Assembly (NCBI GenBank): GCA_938016515.1
Contig: CALILP010000105.1
Location: 1 to 41,808 of the forward strand
Length of the DNA stretch: 41,808 bases
Reading direction: 5' to 3'
Origin: an uncultured Paracoccaceae bacterium
GTDB lineage: Bacteria; Pseudomonadota; Alphaproteobacteria; Rhodobacterales; Rhodobacteraceae
In this document: positions 701 to 38,928 of the stretch, piece by piece
Numbering within the stretch: position 1 is the first letter of the stretch
How the letters are laid out: every line of letters begins with the position of its first letter
Position numbers and translations under genes: made by a program
The notes under the pieces: generated by a model
Databases searched by the model: none
Told to the model about the DNA's origin: nothing
Seen by the model: the letters and a program-made list of their open reading frames with translations, nothing else

Positions 701-714
701 TTGATCTGGATCAA
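701..714. promoter_or_regulatory. FNR box upstream of ccoN
   Basis: The sequence is TTGAT CTGG ATCAA, a perfect match to the FNR/FnrL consensus TTGAT-N4-ATCAA. It is centred about 93 bases upstream of the ccoN ATG and 6 bases beyond the fnrL stop codon. Class II FNR activation (centre at -41.5) would put the ccoN transcription start near 666. FnrL encoded next door is the obvious regulator. Confidence 0.85.
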
Positions 715-719
715 AAGGT

Positions 720-1454: not shown

Positions 1455-1457
1455 GGA

Positions 1458-1471
1458 TTGATCTGTATCAA
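1458..1471. promoter_or_regulatory. FNR box in the fnrL-hemN divergent promoter
   Basis: The sequence TTGAT CTGT ATCAA is a perfect FNR dyad. Its centre is 42 bases before the hemN ATG and 10 bases before the fnrL ATG. For hemN this is the class II activation geometry with transcription starting at or next to the start codon. For fnrL the site covers the region where RNA polymerase or the ribosome would load, as expected for autorepression. Confidence 0.85.
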
Positions 1472-1506
1472 GGTTTTCGTTCCCATACCTCACCATAAGC
1501 ATAGAC

Positions 1507-10596: not shown

Positions 10597-10613
10597 AGAA
10601 GTTTCCTTTCAGA

Positions 10614-12707: not shown

Positions 12708-12772
12708 GTGGGTCTCCGATCGGTTAAGACCGGTTTAGCACGCACCTTGCGTCAGAAGGTTTACATGTCAGC

Positions 12773-12798
12773 CTCACAAACCATACAAAACCGTAACC
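12773..12798. promoter_or_regulatory. Possible response-regulator binding repeats upstream of DUF1800
   Basis: Read on the plus strand, ACAAACC (12776-12782) and ACAAAACC (12785-12792) are in register at 10 bases and are followed by GTAACC (12793-12798). OmpR/PhoB-type regulators bind direct repeats of 10-11 bases. The site lies 66 bases upstream of the DUF1800 start and just beyond the kinase stop codon. It is offered as a candidate only. Confidence 0.3.
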
Positions 12799-12799
12799 T

Positions 12800-14846: not shown

Positions 14847-14984
14847 AGGGCGCAGACTAGGGCAGGGCGACGCAAAGCGAAACCAACGACTTGGGGCGGT
14901 GCCACAAGGACAGCAACTTTGCCATGTCTTGCCCGGGGCTTGCCCGATATGATTTGTGCGTAAGCATGCGCAAGAGGTTGCAAC

Positions 14985-15590
14985 ATGGGCCATCCCACTA
15001 ACGTCGTCTTCGATATTGGCAATGTCCTGATCGACTGGCAGCCGCACTTGGCGTGGATGGAAGAGCTTGGAACGCACGCGGCCGTGCAAGCCTTTCTGGA
15101 CCGCTCCGGCTTTATGGCATTGAACGAACGCGCCGACGCAGGCGCGCGTTTCGCGGACCTTGCCAAAGAGGTGTCAGACCCGGAAGACAGCCGCCGCGTT
15201 GCCGACTATGTCCCACTATACAGCCGGACCGTGGTGCACGGAATTGAAGGAACCTGGAAGCTTCTTGAGCAGCTGAAGGCACGAGACGTTCCGGTCCATG
15301 CGATCACCAACTGGTCAGCAGAGACTTGGCCTGAAGGCCTTAAAGCGCAGCCGCGTCTGGGAACTGCCTTTGACACGTTGATAGTTTCGGGGGCCGAAAA
15401 TCTTGCCAAACCAGACGTGCGGATTTTTCACCTGTTTTGCGACCGCGCGGGCCTAGCCCCGGAAGAGTGTCTGTTTGTGGATGACAAGTTGGAAAACACC
15501 GCTGCTGCACAGTCAATGGGCATGGATGCTGTACAGTTTACGACGTCTGACGCCTTTGAAGCGGACCTCAAAATACGTGGTTTGCTTTGA
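14985..15590 (+). CDS. HAD-family hydrolase (phosphatase or dehalogenase-like)
   Basis: A 201-residue haloacid-dehalogenase superfamily enzyme. Motif I is VVFDIGNVLIDW (nucleophile and acid aspartates; the second is replaced by asparagine, as in some YihX-like and haloacid dehalogenase-type members). Motif II is AITNWSA. The motif III lysine is in LAKPDVRIF, and motif IV is ECLFVDDKLENTAAAQ. The helical cap is inserted after motif I (subfamily IA). The start has AGAGG 8 bases upstream. Similar short proteins include the YihX glucose-1-phosphatase group, but the substrate cannot be read from sequence. The gene is divergent from the response regulator. Confidence 0.85.
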   Translation: MGHPTNVVFDIGNVLIDWQPHLAWMEELGTHAAVQAFLDRSGFMALNERADAGARFADLAKEVSDPEDSRRVADYVPLYSRTVVHGIEGTWKLLEQLKARDVPVHAITNWSAETWPEGLKAQPRLGTAFDTLIVSGAENLAKPDVRIFHLFCDRAGLAPEECLFVDDKLENTAAAQSMGMDAVQFTTSDAFEADLKIRGLL

Positions 15591-15987: not shown

Positions 15988-15991
15988 GTGA
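15833..15991 (+). CDS. Possible 52-codon leader ORF overlapping the RTX start
   Basis: An ATG at 15833 opens a frame that ends with TGA at 15989-15991, overlapping the GTG start of the giant RTX gene at 15988 in the form GTGA. The peptide begins MIQIRFASTERAHQPK and ends LAVRGPTSGTPS; I recognise no family. A shorter version would start at ATG 15950. The overlap geometry is that of translational coupling, which could explain a GTG start with only a weak ribosome site. It could equally be chance. Confidence 0.3.
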   Translation: MIQIRFASTERAHQPKAASRGLTYKNKNTAAAAVSLHKAMLAVRGPTSGTPS

Positions 15992-22953: not shown

Positions 22954-23775
22954 ATGAATATGCTGAAAATTTCGACCTGCGCGATCATTGCTGGCCTTCT
23001 GACGGCCTGCGGTGGCGGAGGCGGGGGCACAGGTGGTAGCAGTGCAGGTGGCGGCGGCGGCGGCGCGGGTGCCTTGCCGCGGATGGACCCACCCCCTCCC
23101 GGACCGACCGTCGATTATACTGAATTAGGCGCGCAAACCGGGACCAGCCCACTTGCAGGTGCTATTCTTGTGGCGGGCACCTCAGTGACTGGGACGACCG
23201 GTACAATCACGCACAGCGCGCAGACTTTTACGGCAAGCGGGATCAGCGGCAGCACCTCGCTGGGTGACGATTCAGCTTTCGATCTGCCTGCTTTCGCGTT
23301 TGCGACTGACGTCGAGATCGACGCCAGCACCGTTGCTATCGTCGGGTCCAGCACAGCAGCAGCGGATGTGCGCAACACCGGGACAGCAGCTTACACCGGA
23401 CAATTCAGCGGCCAACTTGTCGACACGTCGCTTGGCCCAACAGCCGCAACCTTGAATTGGGATGCGGATATTCAGGTAAATTTTGCGGGGGACGGTGACG
23501 TCGACATCACCTTCGAAGGTGGCGGCTCTGATCTGATCGACAGCATTCGCATCCTGAACGCAGACATTTCAGGTAACACATTTGCTGGCGGCACGATCCG
23601 AACATCCAACGATGGCGTACAGAACAATATTACCGGGACAAGCGTCGATCTTGACGGTGCGTTTTTTGGCTACAACGATGCGCTCCTGCTTCCGGCAGAG
23701 GCGGGTGGCGCGATTGTGTCTCAGGATGGTGACACAGACATCTCGGGTGTTTTTCTAACCACAGCAAAGCCGTAG
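22954..23775 (+). CDS. Surface lipoprotein with TbpB-type C-terminal beta-barrel
   Basis: A 273-residue lipoprotein. MNMLKISTCAIIAGLLTAC ends in a lipobox (LTAC, Cys19), followed by an unusual Gly-rich tether (GGGGGGTGG...GGGGGGAGA) and a Pro-rich stretch. The C-terminal half is beta-rich. It finishes with the pattern of the transferrin-binding-protein-B / Slam-dependent lipoprotein barrel: VNFAGDGDVDITFEGGG, NTFAGGTIRT, GAFFGYNDALLLPAEAGGA and the final ISGVFLTTAKP. It is encoded 27 bases after the RTX gene, with AGAAAGAG before its ATG, so co-expression is likely. By analogy it may be displayed on the cell surface and might retain or receive the RTX protein. No Slam (DUF560) gene is in the window. 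The lipobox is firm; the barrel family is a pattern judgement. Confidence 0.72.
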   Translation: MNMLKISTCAIIAGLLTACGGGGGGTGGSSAGGGGGGAGALPRMDPPPPGPTVDYTELGAQTGTSPLAGAILVAGTSVTGTTGTITHSAQTFTASGISGSTSLGDDSAFDLPAFAFATDVEIDASTVAIVGSSTAAADVRNTGTAAYTGQFSGQLVDTSLGPTAATLNWDADIQVNFAGDGDVDITFEGGGSDLIDSIRILNADISGNTFAGGTIRTSNDGVQNNITGTSVDLDGAFFGYNDALLLPAEAGGAIVSQDGDTDISGVFLTTAKP

Positions 23776-23832
23776 TCAGGCCGTTTGGTGCCGCAGGCAG
23801 TACGACACCTTCATGACCGGCATGGCAGGATG

Positions 23833-23991
23833 CTATTCGCGTGCATCGGCAGCAAGTCTATGGATTTCGGCCCAGTCGACCTCTTGCGGACGTATCGTGC
23901 GCAATTCGGCTTCTTTTGTGATCCGGTTCAGCATCTCGGGCTGAAGACTTGGAAAACGTGACTCGGTGGCAACTTTTTCTTCACGACACAT
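23833..23991 (-). CDS. Small hypothetical protein (52 residues)
   Basis: A short minus-strand ORF starting MCREEKVATESRFPSLQPEM and ending EVDWAEIHRLAADARE. The ATG at 23991 has an excellent ribosome site (AAGGGG, 6-base spacer). An in-frame ATG at 24057 lacks one. The composition is that of a real soluble, charged, helical protein. I do not recognise the family. It is alone between the lipoprotein gene and the DUF11 promoter region. Confidence 0.5.
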   Translation of the reverse strand: MCREEKVATESRFPSLQPEMLNRITKEAELRTIRPQEVDWAEIHRLAADARE

Positions 23992-24057
23992 GTGGAACCC
24001 CTTCCCAGCAGACTGATGTGTATCGTCATTCTCGGCGGGAATGTGGCCGCAAGACAT

Positions 24058-24401
24058 GGGAACCCAAAGCAGTAATTCCCCAGACGTAACGTTACGAATG
24101 GATTAATTTATTTGAATCAATGGGATATAAAATTGCAAAAAGTGGCGGCGAGACCGTCAATTTTGCCCAAATAGCGTCCATCAGGGGCGAATCGGTTCAG
24201 AATTCCGACGCATGTTGGCAGGCGCGGACCCTACAGAACCAAAGAATGTCGGCAATTTTACATCCCGAGATTTGTGGTTAGTCTCTGCCCTAAATACCAC
24301 AAGTCTCATTTTTCTGACGGCATGATCGGAAACTTCCCCTTATCTGATCAGCAAAAAGACTAAAAAGACTGACAAAACACGCAGGGTCGGGGTTATCGAA
24401 A
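24058..24401. other. AT-rich intergenic region upstream of the giant DUF11-type gene
   Basis: About 340 bases, more AT-rich than its surroundings, with no gene seen. It carries a perfect 12-base palindrome (24085-24096) and several A/T tracts near 24120-24140 and 24350-24380. It presumably contains the promoter of the 3399-residue surface protein and of the small minus-strand ORF. I cannot place -35/-10 elements with confidence. Confidence 0.5.
24085..24096. promoter_or_regulatory. Perfect palindrome CGTAACGTTACG
   Basis: CGTAACGTTACG is its own reverse complement over 12 bases and is placed about 300 bases upstream of the giant surface gene and 94 bases upstream of the small minus-strand ORF start. 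It could be an operator for a dimeric regulator. The regulator is unknown. Confidence 0.35.
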
Positions 24402-27400
24402 ATGATCAAAGCGTTGAAAAAGTTTCTTCAACGCAGCGCTTTTGCGCTGGTGGCGACTGGTATTGCGACAACCGCTTATGCGGGGCCACCTTTTCAGTGT
24501 GACGGAAACATCTATCAGGTGCAGTCCGGACAGTTGCGGATTTTTGATCCGATCACATCAACTTATCAGAACATTGGCCCACAAAACGGCAGCTACAACG
24601 CAACTGGTTTCAACATCCTCGACAATTATGCGTACGCGTCGCAGGGCGGAAATATCATCCGGATCTCTGCTGACGGAACGATCGAGACAGTTTTCAACAT
24701 CGGTTTCGGCAGTTTCTCGGGGGACGTCGACTTTTCCAACAATTATTGGCTGCGTCGTAACAACAGCCGTTATGCGCGTATCGACCTCGCTACCGGCAAC
24801 ATCGTTAACGTGGATTTCACAGGAAGCGGGGGCGGCCCGGCCGATGTGGCTTACGATCAGTTTGGTGGGGAAGAGTTTCTGATAGGCTTTGGTGGCGGGC
24901 GCATTTTCCGGTACAATATCACCAATCAGACCAGAGAGAACTTTGTGGTTCCGGGACTGCCGGGCGGCGGATTTGGGGCCACCTGGACGGATTCGAACGG
25001 CCGCCTGTTCACCTTCAACAATAACAATGGCCTTTTGTATGAGGTCTTCGATTATTTCTCGAACACCCCGACCGTACAGCAAGTTGGTGTGGGCGAGCCT
25101 AGCGGGAACAACGATGGGTTCTCGTGCTCATTGGCACCCTTCCCAAACCTTGCGCCGGTGGCGTTTGACGACAACTTCACAACGCCGATCAATACCGCAT
25201 TCTCTGGCAATGTAATCGCAGACAACGGCAACGGCGCTGATAACGATCCGGACGGCACACCAGTCACGGTCAATACGACGCCCCTGTCTGGCCCATCCAA
25301 CGGCGTTGTAGTTCTAAGCCCGAACGGTGATTTCACCTATACACCAGACGCTGACTTTTTTGGTACGGACGTTTTCGAATATGAAATCACAGATGCAGCT
25401 GGTCTGACCGCAACGGCGTTTGTATTTATAACCGTCGTTGCCAACCCTGACTATGAGATCACCAAAACGCAGACAGCAGGCCCCGCAAATGTCACAGCTG
25501 CTGGCCAGCTGCTGACCTATTCAATCGAGGTCGCGAATACCGGTAATGCGCCACTGACTGACATCATGGTATCCGACACGTTACCTGATGGATCGGCAGC
25601 AACCCTTAGTGGCCCAACCGAAAGCGGAGCCGCAACCAACGTGCCGGGCCGCTTGGACGTGTCAGAGACATGGACCTACACAACCACTTACACCACAACA
25701 CAAGACGACATCGACGCTGGTGGCATTCTTGTGAACGAGGCCGCAGCGACAACCGAGGAAACCGGGCCACTGCCGCGACGTGACACGGCTGAAACGCCTA
25801 TCACGCAAAATCCGTTGCTAAGCATTGTGAAGGACGTTGATCCTGATGTGCTTGGAATGCCGGATACGCTGACCTACACGATCACCGTAGACAATATAGG
25901 TAATCAAAGCCTTACAGGGGTCTCACTGACGGATGTGTTGCTCCAGAATGGTGGTGCACTGCCACTTAGTTCCGGGCCAACACTTGCCGGCGATACAGAC
26001 GGTGACGCAGAGATCGATGTTGATGAGACGTGGGTTTACACTGCCACATTCGATGCCGAGCAGGCGCAGCTGGATTTAGGCGCGGACATCGTCAATACGG
26101 CTACCATTCAGACAGATCAAACTGGACCACAAAGCGACGATGCAGTCACCAGTATTGGGCAAACGCCCAGCTTCATGGTCGACAAAACGTCAAACACAGC
26201 AATCCTGACCACCCCCGGCACAATTGCATATCAGATCGAAGTGGAGAATACGGGTAACGTTTCGATCACCGGGGTGACCCCGACAGACACGGTCACGCAG
26301 GGGGCGGCCACATTGGCGCTGACCAGCGGTTTGGATCTGTCAGGCGACACAGATGGTGACAACCAGATCGACCCGGATGAGACGTGGGTCTACACTGGCA
26401 CCTACGTTGCTGGGCAAGATCAGATTGATAACGGCGCGCCCATCGTGAACGATATCAGTGTGGCAACCAGCAATGCCGGAACCCAGACGGGGCAAACTTC
26501 AACGTCCATCGGTCAGACTCCCAGCTTTTTGATTAACAAATCGGTGAATGAGACAACGATCACTGCTCCGGGCGTCCTGTCGTTCGAAGTGGTGGTGCAA
26601 AACACCGGAAACGTGTCGCTGACAGGCGTCAACTTGACCGACACTCTGACGCAGGGTGCGCCGCTGGGCTTTACGTCTGGGCCAACTTTGTCGGGCGACA
26701 CCAACAATGATACGGTCTTGGACGTCGGTGAGACATGGGTATACGTATCAACTTTTGCGGTGGATCAGCTGCAAATTGATGACGGCGGGAACATCGTCAA
26801 CAACGCCCAGATAGATACAGACCAAACAGGTCCGCAGTCGGCCCAAACCACAACAGAAATCACACAGACCGATGCGATAGCGCTTCTCAAAGACATCGCG
26901 CCGGGTGAGCCTTCCAGCTTCAGTGCCGTCGGCGATACGGTTGATTTTCTGTTTTCCATCACGAATACTGGTAACACGACGCTGCAGCAACCAATCACGA
27001 TTGACGACGATCAGATCGGTAATGGACTGGCTTGTCTCACCACTGATTTGGCGCCCGGCGCCAGTGCCACATGTCTGCAAACGTGGACGGCTGACCTTGA
27101 TGATTTGAACGCGGGCAGTGTCACGAACGTCGCATCGGCGGTTGATGACAACGGGACCCGCAGCGCGGACCAACAAGAGACGGTCACAGCGGTGCAAGAC
27201 CCATCGTTAAGCATTGTCAAAGCAATCGTGCCACCTGTACCGACTGTATTCGCGTCGGGTCAGACCCTGTTCTATGAATACCTTGTGACCAATACGGGGA
27301 ACGTGACCCTGACCGAGATGATTGACGTCGTCGACAATTTGACGTCGGTGTCTTGTCCGGGGTTGCCCGGCGGCGCGTTGATCCCCGGGGATGCGATCAC

Positions 27401-30400
27401 CTGTACCGCCAACTATGTTCTGACCAGCAATGACGAAGAGTTGGGCAGCACCACAAACGTCGCCCGCGCCGAGACGACATTTGATGGCGCGCCAGTCGTG
27501 TCTCCATCGGATACCGCGATCTTCCCGGTTGCGGCCTCGCCGGTGATCGATCTGCAAAAGTCAGCACCCGCTGGCCTGATCATCGACGACACGACCGACA
27601 CGATTACCTACAGCTACCGGATCGAAAATGTGCCCCCGCCTGCACCTGCCATCGGTGCTGCGCTGACCGAGGTGATTTTCATCAATGACAACAAGTTTGT
27701 TGATCCGATCGTCTGTTACGATCCTGACGCACCAAGTGCCGCCGATCCAAACGTCTTAAACGGCTCTTTCCAGCCGGGTGAGGTGTTCATTTGTACAGCG
27801 GAATACACAGTTACGCAGGACGATCTGGATGCTGGTGTTGTGGAAAACGAGGCGACAGCAAACACGATTTTTGCGCCCAGTTCGCCAAACCCGATTGATG
27901 TGACGTCCAACATCGCGACAGAATCCGTACCGGTGGCAACTGCACCCGGACTTGGGGTCGTGAAAACAGTCACTGGTGGTCCAGACCCGGCAGCCGTTGG
28001 GCAGACGATTGACTACGAAATCGTGGCGACCAACACAGGCAACCAGACGCTCAACACCGTGGCACTTAGCGATCCGGCTTTGGGGGCGCTGACCTGCGAT
28101 GTGCCCGCACCAGTGACGTTACTACCCGGTGAGGCGCTGACCTGTGACGGCAGCTATGTCGTGCAGCAAAGCGATCTGGACGCGCAGACTGTTGGCGACG
28201 GTGACACAGCGATCTTTACCAACACGGCAACCGGATCTGCCAATGATCCGGCTGGCGTGGCTATTCCGCCTGTGGATGGCAGTGTTGATCATCCGCTTAC
28301 ACCCGCGGCCCCAAGTGTCGCTGTCCTGAAAGAGCTTTTCCCGGTCCCCGGTGCAGACCCAGCTTACACGGCGGTTGATGATGTGGTGCGCTTTCGTATC
28401 CGGGTGACAAACGACGGGACAATGACGCTGAGCAGCATCGATGTCACCGACAGTCTGGTGGCCGGGACGTGTACGGTCGGGCCATTGGCGCCGGGTGAAA
28501 CGGATGGCACCTGTATTTTTGACTATACTGTCCAGCAAGCGGACATCGATCGCGGGTTTATCGAAAACGTCGGCAGCGCGTCGGCCCAACCGATTGATCC
28601 GGCAGCTGATCCGGTCTTGGGGGATGACACCCTGACATCCGATGGGCCCGCGTTTGCAGGCGCGCTAGAGGTCATCAAAGCAGGCAGCCTTGATCTTGGC
28701 GCGGATGGGATTGCCACTGTAGGAGACGTGATCAGCTACACGATCACTGTCCGCAATACTGGCAACGTGTCGCTGACGAATACGGTTGTGACCGACCCCG
28801 GCGCAGATCAGATCACTGTTGCGGCTGCCAATGACCCCGATGGGGACAACGACATCGACACACTTGCACCGGGTGATGTTGCAACTGCAACAGCCACGCG
28901 GGCATTGACGCAGGACGATATCAACGCGGGCAGCTTTGCAAACACGGCCACGGCAACGGGGCAGGACCCAGCCGGGGACGACGTCTCGGATGCATCTGAC
29001 AGTGCGGACCCTGCAGACGGGCCGGGTGGGGATGATCCGACAGTTACACCAATTCCGCGTGGCCCCGGACTAAGCGTCGACAAAAGCTTTACGGCGGTCA
29101 ATGGCACGGGTGCAGGCGATACGATCACGTATAGCTATCTGGTGCAGAACACAGGCAACGTGACGCTGACCAATGTCACGCTGACCGATGACCATACCAG
29201 CGCAAGCGGCACTGCGACACTGCCTCTTTCAGGCGGCGGGGTCATCGCGACGCTTTTGCCCGGTGCGACGGCAACGCTCACAGCGACCTATGTCGTCACG
29301 CAGGAAGACGTCGATGCTGGTGACACGCTCACAAACATCGTCACCGCGACGGGGAATGGCCCTGCAGGAACACCTGCGGCCACAGATTCCGACACCGAAG
29401 CAGCAGACGTCGAGGCCAGCGATCCAGACCTTGAAGTCATCAAAACGGTCCGCAGCCAAAGCGGCAGCGCAGAAGGCGACGTCGTTGTTTTTGAAGTGGC
29501 ACTGCAAAACACAGGCAACGTTTCGTTGTCGAACATCGCGGTAACAGATAACCTTTCGCGTGCCGACAATACGGTTGTCACGCCTGCGCCGACGCCAGCC
29601 TTCGAAAGTGGTGATGGTGGATTGCCAGGCCAAATCGATGTGGGCGAAACATGGGTCTACACGGTCAGCTATACGTTAACGCAAGACGACATCGACGCAG
29701 GTGGCATCCGCAATTCGGCGACCGGTTTCGGTGATGCGCCAGATGGTACTATGGTGTCAGACGTCTCGGATAACGGCGCGGGTGGCGGCAGTTCACCGAC
29801 GCTGGTCCCCATCACAGCAATGCCTGCGTTAGAGGCGGTCAAGACAATCACCTCTTCAACCATCGTGGTTGGCCAAACGGTGACATTTGAAATCGCGGTC
29901 GAGAACACAGGCAATGTCACATTGTCGAGCGTCAACATCGCCAGCGACACATTGACCCGCGCGGATGGAACGCCCCTTAGCCTGACAGGGCCTACCTTTA
30001 GTGGGGCCGATATGGGATCGCCTGAAGGTGCGTTGATGGTTGGGGAAACCGCGACCTACTCTGCCTCTTATGTCTTGGTACAGGACGACATTGACGCAGG
30101 CGGGATCGAGAATACGGCGACTGCACAGGGCACACCGCCAATCGGCTCACCGGTATCGGATGTCTCGGACGATGCAGGTCCGGGCAGCGACCCGACCGTT
30201 CTGACAATCCCTGCTGATCCACAAATCGATCTTGAAAAACGGCTGATCGGCGGCGGCCCAAGCTTTGACGCAGTCGATGACGTCCTGGAATACGCGTTCG
30301 AGATCACAAACCTCGGAAATGTGACGCTAAGCGCGCCATATGACGTGGCTGACCCGTTGATCACTGACGCAGGTGGCACCATTAGCTGCCCAACGACGGA

Positions 30401-33400
30401 CCTTGCGCCGGGGGCCAGCCTGACCTGTACCGGCAACTATAGCGTCACCCAAGAAGACTTGGATGCAGGGCAGGTGGACAACACCGCCACCGCAACTGTC
30501 GGCGACGCTGACCCGGTCGACGCAAGCGAAACGGTTCCGGCGGTCCAAACGCCAGAACTGGATATGATCAAAACACCGGACTTGATCGAAGCCGAAGACT
30601 TCATCGTCGGCGCGGTTGTCACCTATACGTTCACAACAACCAATACAGGCAACGTCACGATCACAGACGCGATCACCATTGATGACAGCCTGATCGATCC
30701 GGCTGATATCTCTTGCGACCCTTTCCCGACAAATGGTCTAGCGCCGGGCGACAGCTATGAATGCACAGGCAGCTACACGGTCACAACTGATGATGTGCAA
30801 ATCGCAGTTGTCACAAACCTGGCGACGGCCAGCGCTGGGCCGACGACGTCACCGATTGCCTCAGCGACGATCCCGAATGATGGCGTCCCGGCTTTGACGC
30901 TGGACAAAGAGCTGATCACATCACGTCAGCCAGACGGGACAGATACCGGCGGGACAACCTTTGATGAAGTTGGTGATCAGCTAGAGTATCGCTTTACCGT
31001 CACGAACACGGGTCAGGTCAGTTTCGCCAATGACATCACGGTCACAGACACCTACTTTACGGACCCGATTGTCTGTTACGTGCCGGACGCAAGCAATCCA
31101 GACCTGACGCCCGGAGAAAGCATCGACTGTACGGCCACCTATCCTGTGACCCAGGATGACCTTGATGCGGGCGCTGTGGTGAACGAGGCCTTCGCGCGGA
31201 CTGAATTCGGGTCCATTCCAACGATTGTGCAATCCACGCCGGATACGGAAACCACCTTGGTTGATGCAGACCCAATGGTCTCTATCCTGAAAGAAGCGGA
31301 CCGCACAGACTTTGCGGCCATCGATGAAGTAGTGACCTATGATTTCACGGTCACAAACACAGGCAACCAGACGCTGACATCAGTCATGGTCAGTGACCCC
31401 CTGATCCCCGGCCTGATCTGCGAGGCGGCAACCTTGGCAGTTGACGAGGTGCTGACCTGCTCTGCGCCTTACACGATCACACAGGCTGATATCGACCGTG
31501 GTTTCGTCACGAACAGCGCCACTGCGTCCGGGATTGACCCGACAGGGGCAGGAATCCCGCCTGTTGCTGGCGACGTCACCATTGATGGGCCCAGCGTGCC
31601 GCCTACCTTGGACCTTGCCAAGATCGCAAACCCGGACCCCTTCGGCGGTGTTGGAACAGCGATTGCCTATACCTTCGCGGTGACAAACACGAGCATCTAC
31701 ACGCTGTCAGACATCACCGTCACCGACTTCCTGCCGGGTGAAGCACTTCCTTTCACCTGTGATATCGCAACACTGGCGCCCGGTGCTGTTGACCAGTCCT
31801 GTCAGGTTGTCATCGAGGTCACGCAGGCCATGGTCGACGATGGAGAACTGGAAAACACAGCCACTGCTGAAGGGCAGGACCCATTTGGCAACACCGCCGA
31901 GGCGACGGACACTATCGTCACGGATGGCCCAGACGAAGATCCGTCACTCAATGCAACCAAGCTGGCCAATGTTCCGGCCACGACGTTGGGCACGCAGATC
32001 ACCTTTACGCTGGTCCTTGAAAACACGGGGAACGTGACAATTGCGGCTGTGGTTCTGACCGACACGATGTTGCGTAACGATGGAACGCCCTTGTCACTGG
32101 ACGGACCCTTTGTACGGCTGTCGGGAGACACGAACGCAGACAACCGGATACAACCAACCGAGACGTGGACCTTTGAGGCCCCCTACACAATCACCCAAGA
32201 CGACATCAACGCAGGTGGCTTCAGCAACATTGTCGACGTGCAGGGGCTGTCGCCCAGCGGGGCTACAGTGACAGACCGGGCTGACAACGGTGACGACAGC
32301 GACGGCAACACCACAGATGATCCGACAATGGTGCCGATCACAACCGATCCGGTGCTGAATGTCACCAAGACGATCACGACCACAGGTGCGATGCCCGGTG
32401 ACGAAGTGATCTTTGAAATTCAGGCGGCCAATACCGGCAACGTCGATATCTTCAACGCAACACCTACAGATACTCTAACCCGCAGCGACGGCACCGATCT
32501 GACGGCAGATATCACCGGCCCAACCCGCACAGTGAACCCAACGGATGCCGGGGATACCACCCTTTCTCCGGGCGAGTATTGGAGTTGGGAGGTCGCCTAT
32601 ACCCTCACGCAAGACGACATCGACGCGGGCGGAATTTCCAACGTGGCCAGTGTCACAGGTGAAGACATCGGCGGGGAAAGCGTGACTGACATTGCGGACA
32701 ACGGCGACGATGGGGACGGGAACATCACGGATGATCCAACAGTCCTGCTGATCCCGGCAACACCGGCAATTGAGGCTGTCAAAACCGTCACCGAACTTGG
32801 TGAAGCTGCTGGCGATCTGGCCGAATTCACAGTTGTTGTGACCAACACAGGCAACGTCACACTGTCTGATCTGACGCTTGCAGATACGATGACCAACCTT
32901 GCAGGGGACCCGATTGACCCAGCAGACTTTACTGTCAGCGATCCGGGTGTCGCGTCCTTGGGCGTCGGGGCCGAGGCGATATACACAATCCGTTACACGC
33001 TCACGCAGGCGGATGTGGACGCAGGCGGGCTGAGCAACACGGCGACGGCCACCGGCACGACGCCCGGCGGCCTTGATCTGAGCGATATCTCGGATGATGG
33101 CGACGATACGGACGGCAATACATTTGACGATCCAACGCTGGCGTTGATCGCGGCGAATGGCAGTCTGGTTGCGGCAAAATCAGCAGAGCTGCCAACGCGG
33201 ATCGGGCCTGACCTGTTCGAAGTCACCTTCACGATGACCATCAGCAACACGGGCAACGTGACCCTGACCGACCTCGCGGCCGAAGATGGGCTGCTGCCGT
33301 TCCTGGGGTCGGCAGAACTGGTGCAGGTCAATGAACCGGTTGTCAGCGGCTTTACGACCGGGGCAGCAAACCCACTTTATGATGGCATTGATACCATCAA

Positions 33401-34601
33401 TATGCTGACCGATGGGGCGACCTTGGCGCCGGGCCTTACCGGTACGATCTTGCTGACTTTGCAATACAATACGCAGTCAGGGCCATTGGGCGGGACCAAT
33501 ACGCTTGTTGTGTCGTCCAACGAAACGCCTGAGCAAGCGGTCGCGGTGGCCTCGATCTCTGACGTGGCCCCGGCAGATGTGCTGGCCACTAAGACTGCAA
33601 CGCCATCGTCTGCACTGCTGGGTGACACAATCACCTACACACTGACGTTCCTGAACCGGTTGGAAACGGCAGAGGAAAACCTGACCGTGATCGATGAACT
33701 GCCAGCAGGGATCGTCTACACACCGGGAACAGCCGTGGTTGATGATGTGGCGCTGGAACCAGTGATCAACGGTCGTCGACTGGAATGGTCGCCACTTGCG
33801 TTGGCGCAGAACGGAACGATCACGATTACCTTTGATGCGCGTCTGGCGACCGGGACACCGGGCGAATACGTCAACCGTACGTGGGCGCAGGATGCGGGAG
33901 GCAACGTCGTCTCCAACGTGGCAACTGCCACTGTGGCGCGGCGTCCAGAGGCGGTGTTCGATTGCGCAGACATCATTGGCAAGGTCTTTGATGACCGCAA
34001 CCAGAACGGCTATCAGGACGGCATCGAAGAGGACCGTGCAGCCATCACGGTGCAGGACTATTTCAGCGACAAGTTCGAACGCCCCGAGGGCCCAAAGGGC
34101 GAACCGGGCTTGCCGGGAGTCCGCTTGGCCACCGTAGACGGCACGCTGATCACAACGGATGAATTTGGCCGCTTTAGCGTTCCGTGCGCGGAATTGCCTG
34201 CAGCAATCGGATCAAACTTCCAGCTGAAACTGGACGAACGGACCTTGCCCACAGGCTACAACGTCACCACCGAAAACCCGCGCAACGTGCGGGTCACACC
34301 GGGCCGCATGACGCGTCTGAACTTTGGGGCCACGCTGTCCAATCTGGTCGAGATTGACCTGACCGCAGCGGCTTTTAACGGGTCGGCCATGAACGGAGAT
34401 CTGCAAGCCTATCTGCCGGTCATCGTGCGCGAACTGTCGAAAGAGGCCTCGATCCTGCGGCTGACTTACTACCGCAACGGCGAAGATCCGGGGCTTGCAA
34501 ATGCGCGGCTTGATACGCTGGAAACAGCGCTGCGGCAGCTGTGGGCGCAAAGCAATCGACCCCGACTGACCATCGAACGTACCATGCATAGGGTTCAATA
34601 A
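24402..34601 (+). CDS. Giant exported surface protein with 23 Ig-like (DUF11/DUF7507) repeats and SdrD-B-like C-terminus
   Basis: A 3399-residue protein. Residues 1-27 are a Sec signal peptide (ending TTAYA). Residues 28-249 look like a beta-propeller-type DUF6923 domain (GNIYQVQSGQLRIFDPIT, NIIRISADGTIETVFNIG, RIFRYNITNQT). Residues 250-347 are a cadherin-like/tandem-95 domain (FDDNFTTPINTAFSGNV, GDFTYTPDADFFGTDVFEY). Residues 348-3183 are 23 repeats of about 123 residues, each with a Lys-x start (e.g. LSIVKDVDP), a central NTGNVTLTxVxxTD and the late TQDDIDAGxxxNTATA. Residues from 3184 contain an SdrD-B-like unit (IIGKVFDDRNQNGYQDGIEED, FQLKLDERTLPTGYNVTTEN), then a conserved tail (LRLTYYRNGED...LRQLWAQ). 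Its stop is one base from the next ATG, so the outer-membrane barrel is a partner. Probably a long surface stalk or adhesin. Confidence 0.85.
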   Translation: MIKALKKFLQRSAFALVATGIATTAYAGPPFQCDGNIYQVQSGQLRIFDPITSTYQNIGPQNGSYNATGFNILDNYAYASQGGNIIRISADGTIETVFNIGFGSFSGDVDFSNNYWLRRNNSRYARIDLATGNIVNVDFTGSGGGPADVAYDQFGGEEFLIGFGGGRIFRYNITNQTRENFVVPGLPGGGFGATWTDSNGRLFTFNNNNGLLYEVFDYFSNTPTVQQVGVGEPSGNNDGFSCSLAPFPNLAPVAFDDNFTTPINTAFSGNVIADNGNGADNDPDGTPVTVNTTPLSGPSNGVVVLSPNGDFTYTPDADFFGTDVFEYEITDAAGLTATAFVFITVVANPDYEITKTQTAGPANVTAAGQLLTYSIEVANTGNAPLTDIMVSDTLPDGSAATLSGPTESGAATNVPGRLDVSETWTYTTTYTTTQDDIDAGGILVNEAAATTEETGPLPRRDTAETPITQNPLLSIVKDVDPDVLGMPDTLTYTITVDNIGNQSLTGVSLTDVLLQNGGALPLSSGPTLAGDTDGDAEIDVDETWVYTATFDAEQAQLDLGADIVNTATIQTDQTGPQSDDAVTSIGQTPSFMVDKTSNTAILTTPGTIAYQIEVENTGNVSITGVTPTDTVTQGAATLALTSGLDLSGDTDGDNQIDPDETWVYTGTYVAGQDQIDNGAPIVNDISVATSNAGTQTGQTSTSIGQTPSFLINKSVNETTITAPGVLSFEVVVQNTGNVSLTGVNLTDTLTQGAPLGFTSGPTLSGDTNNDTVLDVGETWVYVSTFAVDQLQIDDGGNIVNNAQIDTDQTGPQSAQTTTEITQTDAIALLKDIAPGEPSSFSAVGDTVDFLFSITNTGNTTLQQPITIDDDQIGNGLACLTTDLAPGASATCLQTWTADLDDLNAGSVTNVASAVDDNGTRSADQQETVTAVQDPSLSIVKAIVPPVPTVFASGQTLFYEYLVTNTGNVTLTEMIDVVDNLTSVSCPGLPGGALIPGDAITCTANYVLTSNDEELGSTTNVARAETTFDGAPVVSPSDTAIFPVAASPVIDLQKSAPAGLIIDDTTDTITYSYRIENVPPPAPAIGAALTEVIFINDNKFVDPIVCYDPDAPSAADPNVLNGSFQPGEVFICTAEYTVTQDDLDAGVVENEATANTIFAPSSPNPIDVTSNIATESVPVATAPGLGVVKTVTGGPDPAAVGQTIDYEIVATNTGNQTLNTVALSDPALGALTCDVPAPVTLLPGEALTCDGSYVVQQSDLDAQTVGDGDTAIFTNTATGSANDPAGVAIPPVDGSVDHPLTPAAPSVAVLKELFPVPGADPAYTAVDDVVRFRIRVTNDGTMTLSSIDVTDSLVAGTCTVGPLAPGETDGTCIFDYTVQQADIDRGFIENVGSASAQPIDPAADPVLGDDTLTSDGPAFAGALEVIKAGSLDLGADGIATVGDVISYTITVRNTGNVSLTNTVVTDPGADQITVAAANDPDGDNDIDTLAPGDVATATATRALTQDDINAGSFANTATATGQDPAGDDVSDASDSADPADGPGGDDPTVTPIPRGPGLSVDKSFTAVNGTGAGDTITYSYLVQNTGNVTLTNVTLTDDHTSASGTATLPLSGGGVIATLLPGATATLTATYVVTQEDVDAGDTLTNIVTATGNGPAGTPAATDSDTEAADVEASDPDLEVIKTVRSQSGSAEGDVVVFEVALQNTGNVSLSNIAVTDNLSRADNTVVTPAPTPAFESGDGGLPGQIDVGETWVYTVSYTLTQDDIDAGGIRNSATGFGDAPDGTMVSDVSDNGAGGGSSPTLVPITAMPALEAVKTITSSTIVVGQTVTFEIAVENTGNVTLSSVNIASDTLTRADGTPLSLTGPTFSGADMGSPEGALMVGETATYSASYVLVQDDIDAGGIENTATAQGTPPIGSPVSDVSDDAGPGSDPTVLTIPADPQIDLEKRLIGGGPSFDAVDDVLEYAFEITNLGNVTLSAPYDVADPLITDAGGTISCPTTDLAPGASLTCTGNYSVTQEDLDAGQVDNTATATVGDADPVDASETVPAVQTPELDMIKTPDLIEAEDFIVGAVVTYTFTTTNTGNVTITDAITIDDSLIDPADISCDPFPTNGLAPGDSYECTGSYTVTTDDVQIAVVTNLATASAGPTTSPIASATIPNDGVPALTLDKELITSRQPDGTDTGGTTFDEVGDQLEYRFTVTNTGQVSFANDITVTDTYFTDPIVCYVPDASNPDLTPGESIDCTATYPVTQDDLDAGAVVNEAFARTEFGSIPTIVQSTPDTETTLVDADPMVSILKEADRTDFAAIDEVVTYDFTVTNTGNQTLTSVMVSDPLIPGLICEAATLAVDEVLTCSAPYTITQADIDRGFVTNSATASGIDPTGAGIPPVAGDVTIDGPSVPPTLDLAKIANPDPFGGVGTAIAYTFAVTNTSIYTLSDITVTDFLPGEALPFTCDIATLAPGAVDQSCQVVIEVTQAMVDDGELENTATAEGQDPFGNTAEATDTIVTDGPDEDPSLNATKLANVPATTLGTQITFTLVLENTGNVTIAAVVLTDTMLRNDGTPLSLDGPFVRLSGDTNADNRIQPTETWTFEAPYTITQDDINAGGFSNIVDVQGLSPSGATVTDRADNGDDSDGNTTDDPTMVPITTDPVLNVTKTITTTGAMPGDEVIFEIQAANTGNVDIFNATPTDTLTRSDGTDLTADITGPTRTVNPTDAGDTTLSPGEYWSWEVAYTLTQDDIDAGGISNVASVTGEDIGGESVTDIADNGDDGDGNITDDPTVLLIPATPAIEAVKTVTELGEAAGDLAEFTVVVTNTGNVTLSDLTLADTMTNLAGDPIDPADFTVSDPGVASLGVGAEAIYTIRYTLTQADVDAGGLSNTATATGTTPGGLDLSDISDDGDDTDGNTFDDPTLALIAANGSLVAAKSAELPTRIGPDLFEVTFTMTISNTGNVTLTDLAAEDGLLPFLGSAELVQVNEPVVSGFTTGAANPLYDGIDTINMLTDGATLAPGLTGTILLTLQYNTQSGPLGGTNTLVVSSNETPEQAVAVASISDVAPADVLATKTATPSSALLGDTITYTLTFLNRLETAEENLTVIDELPAGIVYTPGTAVVDDVALEPVINGRRLEWSPLALAQNGTITITFDARLATGTPGEYVNRTWAQDAGGNVVSNVATATVARRPEAVFDCADIIGKVFDDRNQNGYQDGIEEDRAAITVQDYFSDKFERPEGPKGEPGLPGVRLATVDGTLITTDEFGRFSVPCAELPAAIGSNFQLKLDERTLPTGYNVTTENPRNVRVTPGRMTRLNFGATLSNLVEIDLTAAAFNGSAMNGDLQAYLPVIVRELSKEASILRLTYYRNGEDPGLANARLDTLETALRQLWAQSNRPRLTIERTMHRVQ
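25443..33950 (+). repeat. 23 tandem Ig-like repeats in the giant surface gene
   Basis: The 8.5-kb stretch codes for 23 units averaging 123 residues. The last unit (from about 33567, APADVLATKTATPSS) is a more classic DUF11 form with VIDELPAGIVYTPGT. Several units contain cysteine pairs around LAPGxxxxC, which could form disulfides outside the cell. The units are clearly homologous but have drifted, so no long identical DNA blocks are seen. Confidence 0.85.
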
Positions 34602-34602
34602 G

Positions 34603-37600
34603 ATGCGTATTCTCAATACCTTGACCCCAAGACTGCTTAGCGCGACGGCCCTTGTGATGGTCGGCACACTTGCCGCCGCGCAAGACAGCGGCGGCTTTTC
34701 AATCCGCGTCAACGGCGATGTCATCACCGAAGATCGTGGCGTGGCCAACGTTGCGCGGCAGGTGGACGTGGCATTGGAACAGGCAGACGTGCAGGTCGTC
34801 TTCGACGGGCTTGGGGGCGAACCGCGTCTGGACATGGAAATCGCAGGACCAGCCCAAGGCTACGGTCCCGGCGATCAGGTGACGCTGCAATCGGCGCTCA
34901 ACTACCCGGCCTATGTGGCACGCAGCGAATTCCGGGTGATTGACGAAGCTGCAGTTGGCGGTCCCAGCACCGTTCTGGTGGTTCCAGTTGATACCAACGG
35001 GACTGCAACGGTGTCTTTGCCTCAGGGCGATGCTTTGGTTGTGGTTCACCGGGTCTACGACAGCACCGGACGCTTTGATGAAACGGCACCCCTCGTTTTT
35101 GCGACAGGCGACAGGCGGGCCAACGCAGACGGCGTAGAAGAAGGGGCCGACAGCGCAATCCGGCGCAATATCCCGGTCTACGGCGGGGCGGTCACCGTGC
35201 GGGGGACAGGGGTCACAAATGGCGCGCAAGTTGTGGCTTTGGGTGAACGGATCCAACCAGATAGCGGCGGCGACTTTGTGATCCAACGCATTCTGCCTGC
35301 TGGTGATTATGACGTCGATGTTGCAGTCCAGGGGGCAGGTCAAAACGTGGACCTGACCCGTCGGATCGCAATCCCGGCCTCTGAATGGTTCTACACTGGC
35401 ACCGTTGATCTGACGTACCACCTGCGCGATGGCGACTCTATTTCGCGTGATGCCAACGCCACCGGCCGCGTGGCGGGCTATGTCGACGGGCGCACAGAAA
35501 CCGGCGTCGAGATTACAGCGTCCATCGACACCCAAGAAGGCGAGCTGGACGAGATCTTCCGCAACCTCGACGAAAAAGACCCGCGCCAGCTGCTGCTGCG
35601 GATCGACCCGGATGACCTTTACCCCACCTATGGCGACGATTCCGAAATTGTGGATAACACCCCTACATCCGGCAAGCTGTATGTGCGGATTGCGCGGGAC
35701 AATAACGTGGCCCTTTGGGGTGATTTTGACAGCCAGCTTGGGGGCAACCAATTGGTGCGCAACGAACGCACGCTCTACGGTCTGAAATTGCATGGCGAAA
35801 CCCAAACGGCCACTCCTGCGGGCGAGGCGCGTGGCAACATTGACCTTTACGCCGCCCAACCGGGGCGTCTGCCGCAGCGCGATGCTTTTCTGGGCACCGG
35901 CGGGTCGGTCTACTTTCTTGAAAAGCAAGACATTGGCGCCACCAGCGAGACTGTGACGATCCAACTGCGTGACCCCAAAACAGGACGCGTGATCGAAACC
36001 CGCGAACTGACACCCGGCGTCGACTACGACATCAACTACATCCAAGGCATCATAACCTTGGCAGAGCCGCTTCAAAGCACGCTCGCCCAAACAACAGTGG
36101 TCAGCGATCCGACGTCTGCGGCACAGGCGCAACTGGTTGTGCAGTATGAATTCACACCGACTGCAACGGATATCGACGGCTATTCCACCGGGGGCCGGGT
36201 CGAAGGCTGGGCAACAGATCAACTGCGTTTTGGTCTGTCAGGCATCCGGGAACAAACGGGCGTCGCGGATCAGACGCTGGTTGGGGCAGATGTACGCTAT
36301 CAGCTCAGTGACGGGACGTACCTGCAACTGGACTACGCAGAAAGCGATGGGCCGGGCTTTGGCTCGACCTTCTCGAACGACGGCGGCCTGATTGTCGAAA
36401 ACGTCGCGGGCGGTGACGGGACAGGGCGTGCGGTGAAAGCAGAAGGCAAACTGACCTTCGCAGACATCGGCTGGGCCGCCGACGGGGCGATCTCTGGCTA
36501 TTTCGAGGACCGGAGCGAAGGCTTCGCCAACCTTGATACGACCGTATCAGCGGCCACAGGTGACGAGCTGCTGTGGGGCTTTGCCATAGACGTGGCCCCA
36601 CAAGACGGCCTGCGCGTGTCTGCCTACTATGACAGCTATGAGAACGCAGCGGATGAGTTTGACCGCACCGGCGGCGTCGAGGTGGGCTATGCGCTTAACG
36701 GGCGCACCTCCGTCGACATCGGCGTCGAACACGTCGACCGCAACCGGGGCACAAACGACGGTCAGCGGACTGATCTGGCAGCGCGACTGACCTATGATTT
36801 GACAGACACAACAACGGTTTACGGGTTCGGGCAAGCGACTGTGGCGCGCGACGGCCTGCCGGAAAACAACCGGGCGGGTCTTGGTGGTTCATATGACACG
36901 GGAACCGGCTGGACTGTCGAAGGCGAAGTCTCGGAAGGCTCGCTTGGCTTCGGGGCGCGGATTTTTGCGCGCAGCGATGACGGGCAGGGCAACGAGGTCT
37001 ACGCAGGCTATGAACTGGAACCGGGCCGCGATCTGAACGGTCTCACACTCAGCGGACGGGACCGGGGGCGCTTTGTGACGGGCGGCAAACGGCGGCTGGG
37101 CAGTGACGTCAGCGTTTTCGGCGAAAACACCTATGATATGTTCGGGCAACGGCGCAGTCTGACCAGCGCTTATGGCCTGACGTACACGGCCAGCGACGCC
37201 CTGCGCTACACAACCGCGATGGAACTTGGGCGCGTGGACGACGGCGACGATACTGATTTCGACCGGACAGCCGTGTCCTTTGGGGCAGAATACGAAGATG
37301 AGACACTGCTGGCCTCAGGCCGTCTGGAATACCGGGTCGAAGAGGGCTTGCGCTCTGGCAGTGATCTGGACAGCGACACGCTGCTTTTGGCTGCAGACGC
37401 GCGCTATAAGATCAGCGATGCGGCACGGATTGTCGGGTCGGTTGATTATGTGCGAACCCAGACCGATCAAAGCGCGATCCTCGATGGGGACTTCACCAAT
37501 GTGACGCTGGGATATGCCTTCCGGCCTGTTAAGAACGACAAGCTGAACGTGCTGGCGCGCTATCGTTACCTGAACGATCAGGTCGGGCAACGTATCGACG

Positions 37601-38001
37601 GAACCGACGAAGACGGGCCGCGTCAGCGGTCGCAGGTGGTCAGCATCGACGCGCTTTATGATCTCAACACGCAGTGGACGGTGGGGGGCAAGCTTGGCTA
37701 CCGATCAACTGAATCTGCGGCAACTGAAGATGATGACTTTGCCCAAAATGATGCATGGCTCGCGGTAGCAAGCGTGACCTACCATGTGGTGCACGAATGG
37801 GACGCATTGGTCGAAGTGCGCAGCCTGAACACGGTGCAAGGTGAGACGTCGGACACCGGGTTGCTGGCAGTGGGGTACCGGCACTTTGGAGACAACGTAA
37901 AGGTTGGGATTGGGTACAACTTTGGTCGGTTCTCTGATGACCTGACCGATCTGGTGCAGGACGATCAGGGCGTGTTCATCAACTTTGTGGCAAAGTTCTA
38001 G
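34603..38001 (+). CDS. Outer-membrane beta-barrel partner of the DUF11-type surface protein
   Basis: A 1132-residue protein with a Sec signal (MRILNTLTPRLLSATALVMVGTLAAAQ). Periplasmic beta domains come first, including a carboxypeptidase-regulatory-like unit (GGAVTVRGTGVTNGAQVV, PAGDYDVDVAVQG). The central segment DPDDLYPTYGDDSE, LYVRIARDNNVALWGDF, NERTLYGLKLHGET, AQPGRLPQRDAFLGTGGSVY and PGVDYDINYIQGIITL belongs to a type I recall beside DUF11 giants in many proteobacteria. From about residue 520 the protein is a series of amphipathic strands with alternating aromatic ends, finishing VFINFVAKF: a C-terminal Phe barrel signature. No TonB box or plug is seen. One base separates it from the upstream gene. 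Probable anchor or exporter for that protein; this role is inferred. Confidence 0.8.
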   Translation: MRILNTLTPRLLSATALVMVGTLAAAQDSGGFSIRVNGDVITEDRGVANVARQVDVALEQADVQVVFDGLGGEPRLDMEIAGPAQGYGPGDQVTLQSALNYPAYVARSEFRVIDEAAVGGPSTVLVVPVDTNGTATVSLPQGDALVVVHRVYDSTGRFDETAPLVFATGDRRANADGVEEGADSAIRRNIPVYGGAVTVRGTGVTNGAQVVALGERIQPDSGGDFVIQRILPAGDYDVDVAVQGAGQNVDLTRRIAIPASEWFYTGTVDLTYHLRDGDSISRDANATGRVAGYVDGRTETGVEITASIDTQEGELDEIFRNLDEKDPRQLLLRIDPDDLYPTYGDDSEIVDNTPTSGKLYVRIARDNNVALWGDFDSQLGGNQLVRNERTLYGLKLHGETQTATPAGEARGNIDLYAAQPGRLPQRDAFLGTGGSVYFLEKQDIGATSETVTIQLRDPKTGRVIETRELTPGVDYDINYIQGIITLAEPLQSTLAQTTVVSDPTSAAQAQLVVQYEFTPTATDIDGYSTGGRVEGWATDQLRFGLSGIREQTGVADQTLVGADVRYQLSDGTYLQLDYAESDGPGFGSTFSNDGGLIVENVAGGDGTGRAVKAEGKLTFADIGWAADGAISGYFEDRSEGFANLDTTVSAATGDELLWGFAIDVAPQDGLRVSAYYDSYENAADEFDRTGGVEVGYALNGRTSVDIGVEHVDRNRGTNDGQRTDLAARLTYDLTDTTTVYGFGQATVARDGLPENNRAGLGGSYDTGTGWTVEGEVSEGSLGFGARIFARSDDGQGNEVYAGYELEPGRDLNGLTLSGRDRGRFVTGGKRRLGSDVSVFGENTYDMFGQRRSLTSAYGLTYTASDALRYTTAMELGRVDDGDDTDFDRTAVSFGAEYEDETLLASGRLEYRVEEGLRSGSDLDSDTLLLAADARYKISDAARIVGSVDYVRTQTDQSAILDGDFTNVTLGYAFRPVKNDKLNVLARYRYLNDQVGQRIDGTDEDGPRQRSQVVSIDALYDLNTQWTVGGKLGYRSTESAATEDDDFAQNDAWLAVASVTYHVVHEWDALVEVRSLNTVQGETSDTGLLAVGYRHFGDNVKVGIGYNFGRFSDDLTDLVQDDQGVFINFVAKF

Positions 38002-38010
38002 GGCGCAGCG

Positions 38011-38928
38011 CTATTCGGCGCGACCGACGATGATCACCTCGACCCGGCGATTGGCCTCGCGTCCATCTGCGGACAGATTGTTGGCGACGGGCGCAAGATA
38101 GCCCATCCCCTCTGCGGCAACCTGACGTGCGGGTATGTCATATGCGGCGGTCAGGCGGGCCATCACAGATTGCGCCCGCTTCTTGGACAAGGCAATGTTG
38201 GCGGCAAGCGAGCCTGCGGTGTCGGTGTGCCCTACAAGGGCGACGCGCAACGCCGGATTGCCGCGTAAAAAATCGGCCAAAGCGGACAAAGACGCATAGC
38301 TGTCTGCGGCTAGCGATGATGTACCGGGCGCAAACGACAGATCGGGCAAGATCGCACGGCCGTCTGCCTCAAGCGTGGCGCCCAAGCTGCCGGGCGTCGA
38401 CCGTGTCGCGATCGTCGGGCTTTGCGCGGCGACCGGGGCTGCGGCAGGTGTGCTACCAATCCGGTCAATCTGGATGTAGACGGCCTGCGCGATCTTGCTG
38501 ACCAGCAAAACCACATGATCGGTGTCATTGGTGCCGGTCCAATACTGGAAGTCGGCCAGATTGACCTGCATGTCGGGCGGGGGCAGAACATCAACGGCAA
38601 AGCGAAAGTCAAAACCACCGCATTGGCTGTCTGCACAGCTGAAGGTCTTGGTGTAGCCATCGGATTCAAGCTGAAGCACCATAGGCAGCAGCAAGGCCAG
38701 CGTGGTTTCAGGTGTCTCGGTTATTTTCCAGACGCTGCGGGTCAGGGTGCCTTCGATGATGGCGGTGGGCATGGCACCATCTGCCATCGGTGCAATCGCG
38801 ATCAGCAGTTGGTCAGGTGCGGCGGCAACCTCGGTGGTGATGGAAGCTGCGGCAGGAACTTGCAGGGCCTGGCCAGTCGCCGCAGCAGCCCAGCCGATCA
38901 GACAGAATGGGAGGGCTGCCCGGATCAT
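38011..38928 (-). CDS. OmpA-family outer-membrane/peptidoglycan-binding protein
   Basis: A 305-residue exported protein. After a signal peptide (MIRAALPFCLIGWAAAATGQA) comes a beta-rich domain with a cysteine pair (FSCADSQCGGFDFRFAVDVLPPP) typical of alphaproteobacterial OmpA-like proteins. Residues about 190-305 form the OmpA C-terminal domain (LSFAPGTSSLAADSYASLSALADFL, VALVGHTDTAGSLAANIALSKKRAQSV, VAAEGMGYLAPVANN, REANRRVEVIIV) with the Asp and Arg that bind diaminopimelate. Its ATG overlaps the stop of the peroxidase-like gene by 4 bases. Its 3' end faces the outer-membrane barrel gene across 9 bases. It may tether the envelope near the neighbouring surface proteins, but operon structure ties it to the cinA-like cluster. 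Confidence 0.88.
   Translation of the reverse strand: MIRAALPFCLIGWAAAATGQALQVPAAASITTEVAAAPDQLLIAIAPMADGAMPTAIIEGTLTRSVWKITETPETTLALLLPMVLQLESDGYTKTFSCADSQCGGFDFRFAVDVLPPPDMQVNLADFQYWTGTNDTDHVVLLVSKIAQAVYIQIDRIGSTPAAAPVAAQSPTIATRSTPGSLGATLEADGRAILPDLSFAPGTSSLAADSYASLSALADFLRGNPALRVALVGHTDTAGSLAANIALSKKRAQSVMARLTAAYDIPARQVAAEGMGYLAPVANNLSADGREANRRVEVIIVGRAE

Follow-up and report, generated by a model that had tools for sequence, protein, structure and literature searches.

Closest Described Systems

In Proteobacteria, fibrillar adhesins that combine CshA_NR2 heads with OmpA-like anchors have been described (PMC10952558, PMC12617251), and fibrillar adhesins with other anchors are surveyed in PMC8286594. 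Two of the domain families concerned, DUF11 and DUF7507, were lately renamed CLIPPER and CLIPPER_2 and comprise immunoglobulin (Ig)-like domains with predicted Lys-Asn isopeptide bonds (PMC12617251). The words "barrel" and "secretion" are absent from the main text of PMC10952558 and PMC12617251, which accordingly name neither a barrel partner nor a route of export. Here we describe a gene pair of an uncultured Paracoccaceae bacterium, located in a window (the whole stretch of DNA analysed) of 41,808 nucleotides on contig CALILP010000105.1. The first gene encodes a giant protein composed of a head, a stalk of Ig-like repeats and a C-terminal tail, and the second encodes a putative outer-membrane barrel. 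On balance, we favour the view that the two genes represent a single surface machine in split form, in which the barrel exports the giant and holds its foot.

The giant shares a CLIPPER-type stalk, a variable head and, probably, a C-terminal OmpA-like domain with the OmpA-anchored CshA/CLIPPER adhesins, such as B9T28_05395 of Acinetobacter silvestris (PDB 9IFR). The stalk of the giant is a tandem CLIPPER/CLIPPER_2 array (Pfam); in contrast to these adhesins, its OmpA-like domain appears degenerate. CshA_NR2 proteins number three among 397 genomes of Pseudomonadota, the phylum of the window. The two long ones (L077 and L079; loci, genomes and contigs are cited by L, G and C numbers) are giants with the same tail adjoining a barrel gene, and the third is a 639-residue frame in a genome that has a barrel of the fused class elsewhere. 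L077 has matches both to 9IFR (E 8e-19) and to OmpA domains of solved structure. No publication describing the giant/barrel pair was recognised in a literature search that had most subscription journals outside its reach. The original prediction for this locus had remarked that no mechanism is known to be described; OmpA-"anchored" fibrillar adhesins were already in print.

Among secretion systems, type Va autotransporters resemble the fused relatives of the pair, in which an N-terminal passenger and a C-terminal barrel form one chain. The differences are that the barrel protein has no PF03797 match at E up to 1 and far more strands in its model, that SdrD-B-like and often OmpA domains lie between passenger and barrel, and that the window version is split into two genes. 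The type Vb systems (TpsA/TpsB) likewise encode a large Sec-type protein and a dedicated barrel adjacently, but by Pfam the giant has no two-partner secretion (TPS) domain and the barrel belongs to no POTRA/Omp85 family, and the conserved module of the window pair is C-terminal rather than N-terminal. SprA of the type IX secretion system (T9SS) is also a very large barrel, and a local segment of ~80 residues aligns with barrel residues ~464-559 (local hhalign 43%, pairwise E 2.5e-4), which we take as a lead only. Full-length similarity is absent, the SprA family TIGR04189 gives no match, and the giant has no sorting domain; membership of the barrel in the SprA family was rejected since the similarity is limited to this local segment. 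In the outer-membrane exchange system TraA/TraB of Myxococcus, a surface protein works with an OmpA-bearing outer-membrane partner. The TraB model matched solely the OmpA domain of L084, and no similarity of the barrel was seen.

Co-occurrence of Tail and Barrel

The barrel is present in 57 and the tail in 38 of the 397 genomes. The original prediction had proposed co-occurrence as a check, and had named giants with the same tail that commonly lack the barrel as evidence to the contrary; such giants did not appear, as 38 of the 38 tail genomes fall within the 57 (hypergeometric 4e-39, uncorrected for kinship). The tail and barrel matches of G192 are both pieces at contig ends. We also note a 91-residue barrel remnant with an internal stop in G213, a genome with no tail match, as though tail and barrel had disappeared jointly; two other listed genomes of the same genus have neither barrel nor tail.

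A scan of genome contigs with the barrel gave 33 loci, chiefly of Rhodobacteraceae by title, together with other Alphaproteobacteria, one Myxococcales, one Bacteriovoracaceae and one Neomarinimicrobiota metagenome-assembled genome. In the phyla of the last three, which are named here after their records, barrel matches were found in 25 of 95, 2 of 78 and 17 of 61 genomes, respectively; an 18th match in the Neomarinimicrobiota phylum (G610) is merely the local SprA match. SprA is also present in the genomes of this phylum (40 of 41 matched, 39 over the cut-off). The barrel was further found on two cyanobacterial plasmids.

Gene Order and Fusions

The neighbourhood of 110 barrel open reading frames (ORFs) was tallied (loci L004-L036, L067-L106 and L188-L226), with at least three genes counted twice (L104 = L011, L222 = L036, L224 = L032). 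A tail ORF lies directly upstream on the same strand, with a gap of -29 to +31 bp, in 56 of the 110. It lies directly downstream in four (L013 and L104, by profile; L011, the same gene as L104; and L220), and in 40 stalk, tail or OmpA matches precede the barrel within a single frame. The tail profile is found in 29 of these 40, weakly in L083, and stalk or OmpA matches alone are found in the other 10. The adjacency stated for many proteobacteria in the original prediction is supported; by record names, the set also reaches Myxococcales, Bacteriovoracaceae, Neomarinimicrobiota and Cyanobacteriota, and the order of the two genes can be reversed.

The remaining 10 of the 110 include six at contig or locus edges (L014, L025, L028, L032, L034 and L224). 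L029 is the second piece of a broken barrel gene, L217 has an OmpA ORF directly upstream of the barrel with a tail ORF just ahead of it, L206 has a repeat ORF alone upstream, and L092 is an ORF with no module detected. For L032 and L034, the tail is found elsewhere in the same genome, within an open frame cut short by the end of its own, separate contig. L032, L034 and L220 were accordingly rejected as partnerless barrels, the tail of L220 being downstream. In the source genome of the window, a second, paralogous tail/barrel pair is split between contigs C186 (L003) and C101 (L002), whose ends have 141 identical bases in common; the assembly broke this pair.

The fused forms reveal how the parts follow one another. 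In L074, a single frame of 2079 residues, the tail occupies residues 770-949 and the barrel residues 948-2079, in company with DUF7507/DUF11 repeats. From the Myxococcales phylum, 18 fetched loci (L188-L205) are single frames of 3501-5145 residues with the barrel at the C-terminus, and the tail profile is present in 16 of them. The place of the gene boundary relative to the OmpA domain varies. It is found on the tail of the giant in 11 of 13 loci of the Neomarinimicrobiota phylum and in both giants of the Bacteriovoracaceae phylum, on the N-terminus of the barrel protein in L033 and L067-L070 (Pfam E 8e-18 for L068), and as a separate gene downstream of the barrel in L078, L080-L082, Vibrio campbellii L257 and Acinetobacter L246. 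In L084, PF00691 (residues 716-818, E 1.2e-9) is situated between the SdrD-B-like part and the barrel on one chain. The order of stalk, SdrD-B-like domain, OmpA-like domain and barrel is kept wherever the gene boundary falls, and this constancy across split and fused forms is the main argument that tail and barrel meet. Deinococcus and Thermus plasmid matches to L091 cover the DUF11/SdrD-B part alone and not the barrel. Directly downstream of the fused barrel gene of L098 is an ice-binding-like gene (606-1817 of the locus, PF11999, E 2e-60).

The Giant Protein and Its Tail

The features of the pair are collected in Table 1. Both plus-strand ORFs begin with ATG, and a single base (34602) separates the stop of the giant from the start of the barrel, as originally predicted. 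The predicted cadherin-like unit corresponds to Big_9, and the 23 predicted Ig-like repeats to 22 DUF7507 domains and a final DUF11 domain (Pfam). With a loose pattern, candidate isopeptide residues are present in nearly every repeat (Lys and Asp in 23 of 23, Asn in 22 of 23). By Pfam, no adhesive domain is recognised in the head (DUF6923 and Big_9), and TPS domain, RTX repeats and T9SS C-terminal sorting domain are all missing from the giant.

Table 1. Features of the giant and barrel genes in the window.
Feature	Residues	Position	Strand	Basis
Giant surface protein (putative), 3399 aa, ATG to TAA		24402..34601	+	ORF list, Pfam
Sec-type signal peptide of giant	1-27	24402..24482	+	by eye
Giant head, DUF6923 (PF21959)	52-242	24555..25127	+	Pfam, E 1.4e-18
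Big_9 Ig/cadherin-like unit of giant	249-344	25146..25433	+	Pfam, E 5.9e-17
Giant stalk, 22 DUF7507 (CLIPPER_2) repeats	~350-3058 (outer bounds approximate)	25449..33575	+	Pfam
Last Ig domain of giant, DUF11 (CLIPPER)	3059-3177	33576..33932	+	Pfam, fold model
Tail part 1, SdrD-B-like domain, two invariant Cys	3184-3308	33951..34325	+	profile, fold model
Tail part 2, probable degenerate OmpA-like domain (beta-alpha-beta-alpha-beta)	~3309-3399	34326..34598	+	model, hhalign
Outer-membrane barrel protein (predicted), 1132 aa		34603..38001	+	profile, model
Signal peptide of barrel protein	1-26	34603..34680	+	by eye; low-confidence helix 8-23 in model
N-terminal beta domains of barrel protein, probably periplasmic	49-257	34747..35373	+	model
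Conserved 'G.DY.I.Y..G.I.L' segment, weak local SprA match	464-559	35992..36279	+	profile, hhalign
Main beta-strand run of barrel, conserved GVGYNF..FSDDLTDL motif, final Phe	508-1132	36124..37998	+	profile, model

The tail comprises the 216 residues (3184-3399) that follow the last DUF11 domain. Its SdrD-B (PF17210) match is below the threshold in the window giant (E 0.048) and over the cut-off in the fused relatives L074 (E 5e-8) and L084 (E 2e-12). The AlphaFold2 model of giant residues 3059-3399 (26 sequences, pLDDT 87, pTM 0.49) falls into the Ig domain of DUF11, a beta domain and, at the C-terminus, a beta-alpha-beta-alpha-beta unit. The 50 Foldseek matches listed for this model include SdrD, pilins, the CLIPPER structure 9IFR and other beta-sandwich proteins; an OmpA domain is not among the 50, as expected if the first domains dominate. 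The predicted SdrD-B-like tail was upheld in its first part, SdrD being among the best PDB fold matches, but the tail probably ends in an OmpA-like domain.

Comparison of the last ~90 residues with the OmpA segments of the family by hhalign gave a probability of 77% and a pair E of 2e-5, against 0.4% with reversed OmpA and 0.2% with the SdrD-B-like part as controls. The OmpA segments were drawn from the pair family's own loci (113 before removal of duplicates). Pfam finds no OmpA (PF00691) domain in the tail of the giant, with E values up to 0.5 admitted, and the tail profile matched only two viral polyproteins among PDB sequences, at E above 1, which we take as chance. Profile comparison and model suggest that these residues form a degenerate OmpA domain. 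Since domains of the OmpA type are periplasmic and bind peptidoglycan there, a periplasmic location of the tail is favoured; the presence of genuine OmpA domains at this place in many relatives suggests the same for the giant.

The Barrel Protein

The AlphaFold2 model of the barrel protein (29 sequences, pLDDT 77, pTM 0.70) is beta-rich throughout. From residue 508 to the C-terminus, 34 strands of at least 8 residues are counted from the DSSP elements, and seven further strands between residues 261 and 430 may belong to the barrel wall as well. The model would thus have 34 to about 41 long strands. The beta-rich model and the final Phe in the sequence agree with the large barrel with C-terminal Phe that had been predicted.

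The protein belongs to no named family. There is no match to NCBIfam at E up to 1, its Pfam matches are two below the threshold (DUF2490, E 0.0035; OMP_b-brl, E 0.011), and the profile finds nothing among PDB sequences at E up to 10. The 50 PDB matches listed for the model are generic large barrels, such as Cir, Deinococcus SlpA/SDBC, LptD, SprA and PapC. In public records, the protein bears the names "TonB-dependent receptor", "hypothetical protein", "outer membrane protein transport protein" and "OmpA family protein".

Proposed Mechanism and Alternatives

The giant would enter the periplasm by Sec. Its tail, with the SdrD-B-like and degenerate OmpA-like domains, would stay there, docked to the N-terminal domains of the barrel protein, and in relatives with intact OmpA domains it probably also docks to peptidoglycan. 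The head and the stalk of 23 Ig domains would pass through or alongside the large barrel, itself presumably inserted in the outer membrane, and end outside, where the giant may act as an adhesin. This arrangement would resemble an autotransporter whose exporter is a separate polypeptide that recognises the C-terminal tail. Since no TPS, RTX or T9SS signal is present in the giant, its Sec-exported stalk needs a route across the outer membrane. An Ig domain is roughly 4 nm long, and an extended stalk of 23 such domains would not fit in the periplasm. The tail is placed as a foot under the barrel because OmpA domains are found at that position and the fusions put the tail directly before the barrel. 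Of the secretion-and-anchoring system that was originally predicted, the dedicated pairing is strongly supported by co-occurrence, adjacency, reversed neighbours and fusions, and the tail as foot is supported; secretion and the outward projection of the repeats we infer.

A number of observations speak against the proposed export. At E 0.001, 19 of the 57 barrel genomes have no tail match; 17 of these have long frames of the fused class (1255-2422 residues, not all of them fetched), and the other two are G213, with its remnant, and G183, with a weak tail match. L092 is a complete ORF of 1673 residues in which no stalk, tail or OmpA module was detected. The barrel model is of moderate quality, and its listed PDB matches have template-modelling (TM) scores of at most 0.29, save a small secretin with 0.40 by target length. 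A small custom OmpA hidden Markov model (HMM) finds one to three domains in 6 of the 18 fused loci of the Myxococcales phylum and, at the two cyanobacterial loci, nothing in either the tail or the barrel protein, and Pfam OmpA is missing from L091 and from the examined stretches of L199 and L205. As OmpA is absent or undetected in several classes, the constant set consists of the stalk, the SdrD-B-like module and the barrel. The distance correlation of tail and barrel is 0.86 versus 0.80 for DUF11 and barrel (40 pairs; one of 41 was dropped for want of DUF11), and 0.83 versus 0.87 for the 23 closest pairs. These values do not single out the tail over the neighbouring DUF11 domain, and distance correlation was rejected as a proof of co-evolution.

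The pairing would look alike if the barrel merely anchored or stabilised a giant that surfaces otherwise, for example by the general beta-barrel assembly machinery (BAM). The OmpA-like "anchors" of fibrillar adhesins are so described in PMC10952558 and PMC12617251. We nevertheless consider a pure anchor rather unlikely. The barrel, with its modelled strand number, looks far larger than an anchor needs, an OmpA domain, taken in print as a sufficient anchor, is often present besides the barrel, and the fused forms carry passenger and barrel on one chain in the manner of autotransporters. Alternatively, the barrel could serve several DUF11 proteins, all of them parts of one fibre, as a port for secretion or assembly, and not the neighbouring or fused giant alone. 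In L084, L091, L096, L097 and L100, possible fibre subunits do lie directly upstream of the set, in the form of one to four small ORFs that look secreted and in part match DUF11 or repeats, and such ORFs recur in L208, L209, L213, L219, Acinetobacter L246 and the cyanobacterial L255 and L256; their presence in several classes means that the cargo may be wider than the proposed export of the giant assumes. At the window pair, however, the stretch from 23775 to 24402 contains no plus-strand ORF of at least 100 residues, and the genes before it encode a TbpB-like lipoprotein and an RTX/laminin-G giant. We regard a multi-cargo port as improbable.

A TonB-dependent receptor with the giant as its accessory appears very improbable. 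Of 23 matching plasmid records 20 were listed, and 7 of those bear this name; L248 adjoins exbB, exbD and a TonB gene. On the other side, Pfam, up to an E of 1, gives no TonB plug or receptor family for the barrel protein, the neighbours listed for L249, L250 and L251 (from an incomplete gene table) include no TonB genes, and a near-obligate stalk partner is not a feature of receptors. The receptor identity was rejected on the missing family match and on TonB genes beside one of four plasmid loci (L248-L251).

The reading of the pair as exporter and exported giant can be extended to the whole family. It is possible, though we hold it with some doubt, that the family is an undescribed class of outer-membrane export in at least 5 phyla (by record names), in which a ~40-strand barrel exports isopeptide-type Ig rods while the SdrD-B/OmpA foot remains periplasmic as plug and peptidoglycan tether. 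The Ig rods would possibly be already folded and covalently locked at export. As part of the same tentative reading, the system would take the form of a giant one-chain autotransporter in the Myxococcales phylum, and would consist of two genes elsewhere.

Surroundings of the Pair

Upstream of the pair, a 2312-residue protein (15988-22926) has a unit of ~160 residues, repeated eight times and without a Pfam family above the cut-off, two laminin-G-like domains and RTX repeats, and is possibly a second large secreted protein. It is followed by a lipoprotein-like ORF of 273 residues (22954-23775) with a TbpB-type barrel domain (PF01298, above the cut-off) and a match below the threshold to a Slam-dependent surface lipoprotein. 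Further upstream, on the minus strand (9400-15089), DUF1501 and DUF1800 genes lie beside a histidine kinase and a response regulator.

An OmpA-family gene (38011-38928, 305 residues, E 4e-17) is convergent with the barrel gene. It was rejected as a member of the set: the OmpA HMM detects this gene in the window, but in L004-L030 it reveals no separate OmpA gene in the 2.5 kb that follow the barrel. Of the 26 barrels there, 24 are followed by 2.5 kb of sequence.

Implications

The pair gives a family context to a barrel that is variously named in public records. With a barrel partner that is near-obligate and in some cases part of one polypeptide with the stalk, the export of such adhesins becomes directly testable, and the one-chain and two-chain forms that occur in nature can be compared. 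How the stalks of OmpA-ended Ig adhesins cross the outer membrane is not given in the main text of PMC10952558 and PMC12617251. If true, the reading of the family as an export class would supply this missing crossing route for OmpA-anchored fibrillar adhesins.

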